Of a stretch of 64,000 nucleotides of DNA, positions 2,776 through 23,488 are shown piece after piece; the first letter of the stretch is position 1; each line of letters begins with the position of its first letter. Location: positions 10,763,879 through 10,827,878 of the forward strand of contig NC_135551.1 of assembly GCF_964340395.1 (NCBI RefSeq), read 5' to 3'. This stretch comes from Glandiceps talaboti (lineage: Eukaryota > Hemichordata > Enteropneusta > Spengelidae). The notes under the pieces are model-generated. The model ran no database searches. It saw nothing but the letters and a program-made list of their open reading frames with translations, and was not told the DNA's origin. The translations under genes were made by a program, and so were the position numbers.

Positions 2776-5700
2776 GTTGTACCAGAAGACTTAGTATTTG
2801 ATTATGCGAGATCTGCTGGAATTAAACCAGGTATAAACACAATAATCAAAGCGTTAACATATATACATAAAGTAGCAAACTGTGATTGTCTGACATAAAT
2901 AGGTTCGGATGGCAAATATATATATATATATATATATATATATATATATATATATATATATATATATATATATATATATATATATATATATATATATATA
3001 TATATATATACATAAAAATGAAAGAAGACGAGTCTGATATTACATAGTGGAATTACACTACGGACCGTTTCACCCGAAGGATCGTCAGGTGTAATAGTGT
3101 GGTTTAATAGTATTCGTTAGCTATACATCCTGCATTATGTACATAACTTGTGTGTGTTCACTGATGGCTGTGTGTACACAAAAAGATTGACAACAAAGGT
3201 TACGTATTATTATTATGTATGATAGCTCTCCAAGGTGATCGAGCACTCTACTTGGCGAAAGAAGAATGAAATTATATGTATATATATATATATATATATA
3301 TATATATATATATATATATATATATATATATATATATATATATATATATATATATATATATGTACATGTACATCAACATCTCCTGACGAGTGATTTACTC
3401 ACGAAACAGGCTTGTAGAGACGAAAAACCCGACTTGATTTTCTTCTACCCTCAACATATATATATATATATATATATATATATATATATATATATATATA
3501 TATATATATATATATATATATATATATATATGTGTGTGTGTGTGTGTGTGTGTGTGTAGTGGGGGGGGGGGGCAGTTGAATAAACCAACGGACGTTTTTT
3601 ATATTATTACATGGACAACAAAACTTGAATGATATACAAGTTGTATAAAGATTATGACTGCTTCAAATAACGTATTATAGTAATATCTGGTACCTGTTAT
3701 GTCTTCAAACGTTACAATACTTAGCCCGTCAGTTAAGGTCAGTCAATGTTAAGCATAGTCGATAACTATGTATATTGAATAGTCGATAACTACCTGTACA
3801 TTGTATGTATATTGAATAGTCGATAACTACATGTATGTATATTGAGAGCCATTTTCATTGAAACGGTTGAAGTTTTCTAGCCAGTCTTATGCAATACTTC
3901 AAGAATTTTCTCATGGACTGGCTTTACTCCAGTCGAAAAGGATTAAATTTGATATTCTGATTAAATAGTTTGTGTTAACCATGCATAATTGTAATGATGA
4001 CTGCAGATTTGATAACTATCAAACTGTAGTATTGATGGCATCAGATCATATCTGAAGAAAAAAAAATGTTGAGTTGCATACCAGTGCATTCTATAAGAAG
4101 TCTATTCACACCCAAAACAAATTTGAATACCTTAAATAAATGCATTGAATGGCGTCTATTAATCTACCAACACTTTAGTCTTTACTGAATGTCAACGTTC
4201 ACATGTCTATATAATTGTTATCATCAGCTGACGTTCACCACTATGATGTTGTATACCCTGAAAAAACTGAGAGATTCACAAGGGATACTTCCTTTGATGA
4301 CATCGAGCAGGAGTTTCACATAACTGTGGAAATTTTTGGTGAAACACATGACATTCGTTTAAAACGCAGTGGAGGTAAGATTCTTGAGAAGGATAAAACC
4401 AAATATGCATATAATACAGCTCATGATGCTATTCATTTATTTATTTATTTAGTTAGTTAGTTAGTTAGTTAGTTAGTTAGTTAGTTAGTTAGTTAGTTAG
4501 TTAGTTAGTTAGACAGGCACGCACGCAGACAGACAGACAGACAGACAGACAGACAGACAGCCAGACAGACAGACAGACAGACTGACAGACAGCCATACAT
4601 ACATACATACATACATACAGACAGACAGACAGACAGACAGACAGACAGATAGATAGATAGATAGATAGATAGATAGATAGATAGATAGATAGATAGAGAG
4701 ATACAAACATACCAGGCAGATAGATAGATAGACAGACAGACAGACAGACAGACAGATGCAGAAAGATGGGACGAGCAGGCAGACCAGCACACAGACAGGA
4801 ACAGATGCCCGGTCACAGAGAGAAACAGAGAGGTAAACATAATGTTATATATTTGTTGCATTTCAGATTTCTTCAATGCTCCATTTGTTGAATACTGTGG
4901 TGATGGTGGCATACGATGGGATAGGTTTCCTGTTGATGTTGACAAGTCTTGTTTCCACAGTGGATATATCACTGGAGTAGAAAACTCACTCGTGGCAATA
5001 AAATCATGTGATGGACAGGATGTGGTAAACTTAATATTTGTTAAGACAATCACTTAATATCTGCCTTTATAACGTTTTACATGTTCATGTTTTATGGTAC
5101 TGTTTTAGATGTATGGATAGTTTTAGGCGTTACAATTGTGTCTTTCAATAGACAAGAAACTGTTACAGTACTAGAAAGTTGGATAGGAAGAACTTATTGG
5201 TATGATGTAACACCTGCAGTAGATGTGACATACTATACAGGGGTAATTTTGAATGTGATCAAGTGGTTGCTTTGCATGTAAATAGTATTTTATCCCATTG
5301 CTAAAATGCTGTAATATATATTCATCGGTCAATCAGTCAGTCAGTCAGTCAGTCCTCCCTCAACTAATGTCACATGCAATTATATCTCTTCAAGTAAAGA
5401 AGCTTTGAAAAACTTATCCTAAAAAAACAATTGTTTGGTTCCGGTTACCCGACCCCACCTAGGTTTTCACTGCCGACCCTAACTTTTTTTACGTATTCAA
5501 GAAAAAAATAAATAAAATCGCAAATTTTTTTTAAGTCTCATCACGAGAAGTAGTGGATGCGGAAACTGACATTAACTTAAAAAGACAAATTAAAACTGTT
5601 CTTCTAATCTGTAATGGCTGTACATATTATAGGAAGAAATGAACAACACAGAAACCATTTGGAAAAACAATGGACAACCTGAACTAGGCACTCACACAGA

Positions 5701-23488: not shown

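Follow-up and report, generated by a model that had tools for sequence, protein, structure and literature searches.

The window analysed here is a stretch of 64,000 nucleotides (C4:10763879-10827878) from the genome of Glandiceps talaboti (590 Mb, 47 contigs), an enteropneust of the family Spengelidae (NCBI taxonomy and protein names). On its forward strand, 23 exons between positions 2776 and 23488 join in a single frame with canonical splice sites, as seen from the splice-site listing and exon joining: acceptors are AG in all 23 exons, internal donors are GT in 22 of 22, and the frame comprises 1959 codons, ending with a TAA stop at 23486-23488 (Table 1). The gene does not begin with the exon at 2776, as coding continues upstream into a signal-peptide exon (exon 0) of 72 bases, which starts 1200 bases upstream of the window and has a GT donor in phase 0. 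The complete gene has 24 exons and the whole protein 1983 amino acids. The initial annotation of this DNA had counted 24 exons within 2776-23488; the single frame is correct, the count is 23 for this stretch, and the 24th is the upstream signal exon.

Table 1. Exons and other features of the locus (window positions unless marked; L009, sequence upstream of the window)
Feature	Position	Strand	Evidence
Exon 0, signal peptide	L009:8801-8872, before window		upstream sequence reading
Exons 1-4, propeptide	2776-2830, 4228-4374, 4867-5024, 5844-6054	+	splice model; residues same in NCBI model P0009
Exons 5-9, reprolysin-type zinc protease, HEMGHSLGMSHD, GFMSGG Met-turn	6580-6719, 7345-7431, 8124-8254, 9747-9875, 10467-10583	+	
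Exons 10-12, ADAMTS-like Cys-rich region	10753-10930, 11538-11642, 11931-11994	+	Pfam below cut-off; exon 12 bridged in 4/4 relatives
Exons 13-14, C-type lectin domain, GEPNN motif, FSD replacing WND	12384-12696, 13233-13297	+	Pfam
Exon 15, kringle K1	14361..14627	+	Pfam
Exon 16, kringle K2	16351..16611	+	Pfam, PDB match
Exon 17, pentraxin domain P1	17057..17683	+	Pfam, PDB match
Exon 18, pentraxin domain P2	18186..18758	+	Pfam, PDB match
Exon 19, pentraxin domain P3	19038..19613	+	Pfam
Exon 20, kringle K3	20276..20536	+	Pfam
Exon 21, pentraxin domain P4	20997..21569	+	Pfam
Exon 22, kringle K4	22236..22496	+	Pfam
Exon 23, pentraxin domain P5 and stop	22908..23488	+	Pfam
AATAAA, possible polyadenylation signal	23689..23694	+	about 200 bases 3' of stop; weak

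The AATAAA behind the stop is weak as a polyadenylation signal because 11001-25000 contains 27 copies of AATAAA or ATTAAA. Two stretches were rejected as extra exons, namely a 32-base piece at 13082-13113, with which a TGA arises at the junction, and an open stretch around 5109-5242; the relatives described below have no counterpart of either. A suspected second propeptide at 32269-32514 was also dismissed, as Pfam gave nothing there and no adjoining exon was seen by eye. A scan of the window with Rfam returned zero families at the gathering score. The intron before exon 1 holds, on the reverse strand (790-2244), an open frame of 484 amino acids with a YRDD-type motif and no Pfam match at E<=0.001, which looks like a Penelope-like reverse transcriptase, and a reverse transcriptase fragment lies at 30496-31068 on the forward strand (RVT_1, 37.6 bits in Pfam). 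Behind the gene, the reverse strand carries open frames with hydrophobic stretches (24213-27607), which we presume to resemble MS4A-type four-span proteins; two of them were scanned with Pfam and gave no match. Upstream of the window, a long intronless frame (L009:965-2310, forward strand) looks by eye like a membrane protein with immunoglobulin domains.

The order of domains in the predicted protein is signal, propeptide, M12B zinc protease, ADAMTS-like Cys-rich part, C-type lectin domain and a tail of kringles (K) and pentraxin domains (P) in the arrangement K-K-P-P-P-K-P-K-P, the final exon being a pentraxin domain with the protein end DLCIN-stop. This is the order that the initial annotation had given from the propeptide onwards; it is recovered by Pfam, and for the propeptide by alignment to relatives. 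Reprolysin scores 42.8 bits (cut-off 20.8), with the HExxHxxGxxH zinc motif present as HEMGHSLGMSHD, and Lectin_C 32.9 bits (cut-off 22.6). Kringle lies above its cut-off of 34.3 in four of four module exons (78.6-89.3 bits) and Pentaxin above its cut-off of 25 in five of five (33.4-54.9 bits). Among sequences of the PDB, the best matches of the protease domain are ADAMTS-5, -1, -13 and -4, those of P1 and P2 are neuronal pentraxins and not CRP, and those of K2 are plasminogen, HGF and apolipoprotein(a), while the first lectin exon matches macrophage mannose receptor and, weakly, mannose-binding protein C (E<=0.01).

Protein searches covered relatives whose length is 0.55-1.75 times that of the query and which share exact words with it; in one search the best 7998 candidates by shared words were scored. 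They gave 13 different proteins among the matches listed. Two of these, P0009 and P0001, are the Glandiceps locus itself, P0013 is a fragment of 290 amino acids, and P0003, P0005-P0008 and P0011 match only part of the Glandiceps protein. By Pfam, the families Reprolysin, Lectin_C, Kringle and Pentaxin are present together in each of the models P0002, P0004 and P0012, and P0010 begins inside the protease and retains the remaining modules. P0002, P0004 and P0010, each named 'uncharacterized protein' and probably located on one contig of Ptychodera flava, share with Glandiceps the protease, Cys-rich part, C-type lectin, K1, K2, P1 and P2 in this order, but are without P3, K3, P4, K4 and P5; P0002 and P0004 are 55% and 53% identical to the Glandiceps query over 62% of its length. 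The predicted model P0012 of Saccoglossus kowalevskii (LOC144360991) likewise has protease, Cys-rich part, C-type lectin, two kringles and a pentraxin domain in order, but differs in having no P2 and in a tail that consists of a PAN-like and a further C-type lectin domain. The core of protease, lectin, K, K and P is thus present in three families: Spengelidae, Ptychoderidae and Harrimaniidae. No match outside the hemichordates had the combination among the matches listed by these searches with exact shared words, which is weak evidence of its absence there, and in the full-text literature, which mostly excludes subscription papers, we found no paper describing the architecture by title or abstract. 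A domain search of the protein and its relatives, as had been suggested, has thus found the expected domains and the core in the same order in Ptychodera and Saccoglossus. The earlier statement that no described protein has this order holds within our searches for the full Glandiceps tail; it does not extend to the core, which exists as unnamed predictions in these two genera. Ptychoderidae and Spengelidae are sister groups, which together with Harrimaniidae form the Enteropneusta, and Ptychodera and the spengelid Schizocardium are estimated to have last shared an ancestor more than 370 million years ago (PMC11175523). Because the core is common to all three families, it would, if the models are right, predate their split and be at least as old as these more than 370 million years.

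Judged by its domains, the Glandiceps protein is a reprolysin-type (M12B) protease. It is on the same grounds not an ADAMTS because it has no thrombospondin type 1 repeats, and not an ADAM because it has no disintegrin domain: neither family gave a match at E<=0.001 in the N-terminal piece of 1018 amino acids, the six later module exons, P0012, P0002, P0004 or P0010. The ADAMTS_CR_2 family scores 25.1 bits in Glandiceps, just under its cut-off of 27.3, and 28.5 bits in P0010. The label 'propeptide' rests on alignment to relatives because the M12B propeptide family PF01562 has no match at E<=0.001 in P0009; P0002 and P0004 score 21.9 and 22.5 bits, under the cut-off of 23.7, and the fragment P0013 lies above it with 26.8 bits. 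AlphaFold models were computed for P0009 and for P0010 of P. flava, each together with four further rows, and their mean pLDDT of 31 and 34, respectively, is too low to be of use.

NCBI splits the locus into two models, P0009 with 513 amino acids, named 'snake venom metalloproteinase-disintegrin-like mocarhagin', and P0001 with 1337 amino acids, named 'apolipoprotein(a)-like'. P0009 is letter for letter the product of exons 0-11 apart from its final three residues, which are three codons of intron 11 followed by a stop, so that it ends inside the Cys-rich region. P0001 is letter for letter the product of exons 15-23 after its first eleven residues; it starts at 12663 with an out-of-frame piece of lectin exon 13 joined straight to exon 15, skips exon 14 and carries no signal peptide. 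Since exons 0-11 and 15-23 match NCBI models in this way, our reading is not due to chance. Exons 12 and 14 are unused by NCBI in Glandiceps, and only four junctions (11/12, 12/13, 13/14 and 14/15) are without support from an NCBI model. All four are bridged, with one-residue gaps nearby, in each of the four relatives compared (P. flava P0002, P0004 and P0010, S. kowalevskii P0012), which are themselves predicted models; the 290-residue Ptychodera fragment P0013 was left out of this comparison. Where Glandiceps reads CQKEGKGECF, all four have CQKDGKGECF. In exon 12, 8, 9 and 10 of 20 residues are identical in P0002, P0004 and P0010, and 12 of 21 in P0012; for exon 13 the identities of 102 are 57, 54, 55 and 48, and for exon 14 those of 22 are 12, 10, 13 and 7 (P0002, P0004, P0010 and P0012, respectively). 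One protein with the full domain order is well supported by this conservation, and, because each of the two inner model ends disrupts either a domain or the frame, we judge the NCBI split to be a model fault or the trace of partial isoforms.

The initial annotation had linked transcripts split between the Cys-rich and lectin exons, or between the lectin and kringle exons, with two separate genes, and formally half of this is found, in that NCBI gene models rather than transcripts divide the locus between the Cys-rich and the lectin/kringle exons. Read literally, these models describe a gene for a short protease (513 amino acids) adjoining one for a separate kringle-pentraxin protein (1337 amino acids), and models of such kind can rest on RNA-seq. 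However, the protease would then run out in three codons of intron 11 within its Cys-rich region, its neighbour would start at 12663 out of the lectin frame and would be, by itself, a disulfide-rich product that lacks a signal peptide, and no use would remain for exons 12 and 14, which 4/4 relatives keep, all of which makes two genes very improbable. One gene might also give two products: the fused protein at full length, and a short protease translated from a transcript that ends in intron 11. This agrees with our preferred reading of a single gene, the odd end of P0009 could be a genuine transcript end and intron 11 contains an ATTAAA at 11828; on the other hand, the short form would be without the last cysteines of the Cys-rich region, which exon 12 encodes, and signals of the ATTAAA type are frequent by chance, with 27 in 14 kb. 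We regard a second, short product as rather unlikely.

The history of the tail was read from one tree of 12 kringles and one of 12 pentraxin domains, in which 5/9 and 7/9 of the inner branches are left open. Glandiceps K2, K3 and K4 group together in the kringle tree (97/96), in which the K2 of S. kowalevskii falls on the K1 side. In the pentraxin tree, P2, P3 and P4 of Glandiceps group together (91/99), P1 of three species is set apart from the P2-type domains (100/100), and P5 falls in the P2 group in a place that is not settled. The simplest reading is that the ancestral tail was K1-K2-P1, that P2 is shared with Ptychodera, and that K2 and P2 were later copied in the Glandiceps line. Module exons 15-22 have phase 1 at both start and end in 8/8 cases, an arrangement that allows modules to be copied without loss of the frame.

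The Glandiceps genome contains three further multi-exon loci that match a query from protease to lectin, and their tails, which were searched in the 9 to 10 kb behind each locus, differ. The paralogue on C26 (4004500-4022000) has protease, Cys-rich part and lectin, and behind them, in the same orientation, three pentraxin exons; the 9-10 kb searched behind its protease-lectin part gave no kringle. The one on C13 (4084456-4123200) has protease and Cys-rich part followed by one kringle and one P1-like pentraxin exon, again on the same strand, and no lectin exon in the stretch searched. The third, on C17 (8180484-8189277), consists of protease, Cys-rich part and lectin; two kringle exons 3-4 kb away lie on the opposite strand and were not counted to it. 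Pentraxin exons are thus colinear with the protease in two of the three paralogues, which speaks against the NCBI split; the opposite-strand kringles at C17 and the lack of a lectin exon at C13 and of a kringle at C26 in the stretches searched count in the other direction. The same query also gave single weak lectin-type matches elsewhere in the genome. Kringle and pentraxin modules look greatly expanded in Glandiceps: in genome-wide searches, Kringle and Pentaxin were present at E<=0.001 in 150 of 150 candidates scored for each, out of 200 and 223 found, respectively. The pentraxin count is a lower bound, as the five P exons of the locus itself are absent from the 150 of 223 that were scored. 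In a dense array at C4:4167964-4194070, at least 24 pentraxin matches follow one another at intervals of about 1.0-1.2 kb, and many of them score equally.

Some of the recognition modules have changed at positions that matter for ligand binding. Sugar-binding C-type lectins have the motif EPN or QPD together with WND. EPN is kept in 5/5 proteins (Glandiceps and the four relatives), but WND is replaced by FSD in both Glandiceps and P. flava and by LND in S. kowalevskii, so that by its motifs the domain does not qualify as a sugar-binding C-type lectin. The pentraxin signature, H-x-C-x-[ST]-W-x-[ST], is found in four of the five pentraxin domains (P2-P5) and fails in P1, which reads HMVITWGS. 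P1 keeps the GQD of the calcium-binding loop, and P2 is without about nine residues of this loop compared with neuronal pentraxin-2; P3-P5 were read by eye only. The ligand sites of the lectin (WND to FSD) and of P2 (calcium loop partly gone) thus appear eroded. In plasminogen, the lysine-binding site of kringles consists of an acidic pair and aromatic residues; K2-K4 read NPDNE, a putative lysine site, and K1 reads NPDNS. Reading of the sequence at the end of the propeptide gave no plain RxxR furin site.

We consider it highly probable that the locus is one gene for a secreted M12B zymogen of 1983 amino acids, aimed by lectin, kringle and pentraxin exosites, that its tail was copied in Glandiceps, and that the NCBI split is faulty or partial. 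The signal peptide would export the zymogen, which fits the word 'soluble' in the earlier guess of a soluble pattern-recognition protease, and the propeptide would keep the zinc protease inactive up to a cleavage, which may fall near a basic RLRK stretch. On the mature enzyme, the C-type lectin, the four kringles and the five pentraxin-like domains may act as exosites, by analogy with RVV-X and ADAMTS. The tail would fix the protease to a surface or partner, where substrates would be cut, and local concentration and orientation brought about by the tail would decide what is cleaved. The P-P-P-K-P-K-P part would have arisen when K2 and P2 were duplicated in the Glandiceps line, as the trees support.

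What such an enzyme does might lie outside immunity and haemostasis, with the protein processing matrix, mucus or egg coat and its tail binding glycans and matrix of the host itself. The nearest solved relatives of the protease, ADAMTS-5, -1, -4 and -13, include in the first three matrix proteases, the pentraxin domains have neuronal pentraxins rather than CRP as their nearest matches, and lectin and calcium motifs are partly lost. Nothing specific speaks against this role, but kringles and the likeness to mannose-type lectins would suit humoral defence too, and we give it slightly less than an even chance. In some lineages, moreover, the protease might be inactive and the protein only a multivalent binding protein. 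The Met-turn methionine is replaced in 4/4 proteins of Ptychodera and Saccoglossus (by H, H and Q in P0002, P0004 and P0010, and by V in P0012), and because of this their protease activity appears uncertain. HExxHxxGxxH, however, is kept in 5/5 proteins (Glandiceps, P0002, P0004, P0010 and P0012), and the methionine is retained in Glandiceps (GFMSGG) and its C17 and C26 paralogues; loss of activity is therefore improbable in our view. MASPs and clotting proteases are serine proteases that fill a surface-sensing part in other animals. An enteropneust counterpart, present since before the three families parted, would have this part done by one chain with a reprolysin core, which senses surfaces by lectin, kringle and pentraxin domains, cleaves a humoral substrate and has an enlarged tail in Glandiceps; we mention this as an idea that is unlikely, yet not far-fetched.

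Under the preferred reading of one secreted zymogen, this looks like an old, uncharacterised hemichordate protease, which probably finds its targets by its tail. It is a candidate humoral protease of hemichordates, a phylum that stands near the chordates. The four Glandiceps loci with their differing tails represent a natural test set for tail function. There is also a likely fault in the public annotation, in which the two halves of the gene carry misleading names.

To our knowledge, known reprolysin-type proteases are targeted via disintegrin or thrombospondin domains, or via separate lectin-like chains as in viper venom; here, a single reprolysin-type chain bears three further kinds of recognition module. 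ADAMTS proteases share with the Glandiceps protein the Reprolysin domain and an ADAMTS-type Cys-rich region, and their ancillary domains serve as exosites; in contrast to them, lectin, kringle and pentraxin modules replace the thrombospondin type 1 repeats in Glandiceps. The astacins are another family of zinc proteases with similar ancillary domains, C-type lectin, kringle, PAN and pentraxin domains being some of them, but they are not reprolysins, and the source lists these domains for the family as a whole rather than for one protein (PMC9848320). In snake venom P-IIId metalloproteinases such as RVV-X, as in the Glandiceps protein, a reprolysin-type protease is coupled to C-type lectin-like domains, which serve recognition (PMC4885070). 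In contrast to Glandiceps, the venom enzymes carry their lectin-like domains on chains of their own, disintegrin and ADAM-type Cys-rich domains belong to the heavy chain, and no kringle or pentraxin domain is named (PMC4885070). The P-IIId metalloproteases of vipers are the nearest functional analogue of the Glandiceps protein.
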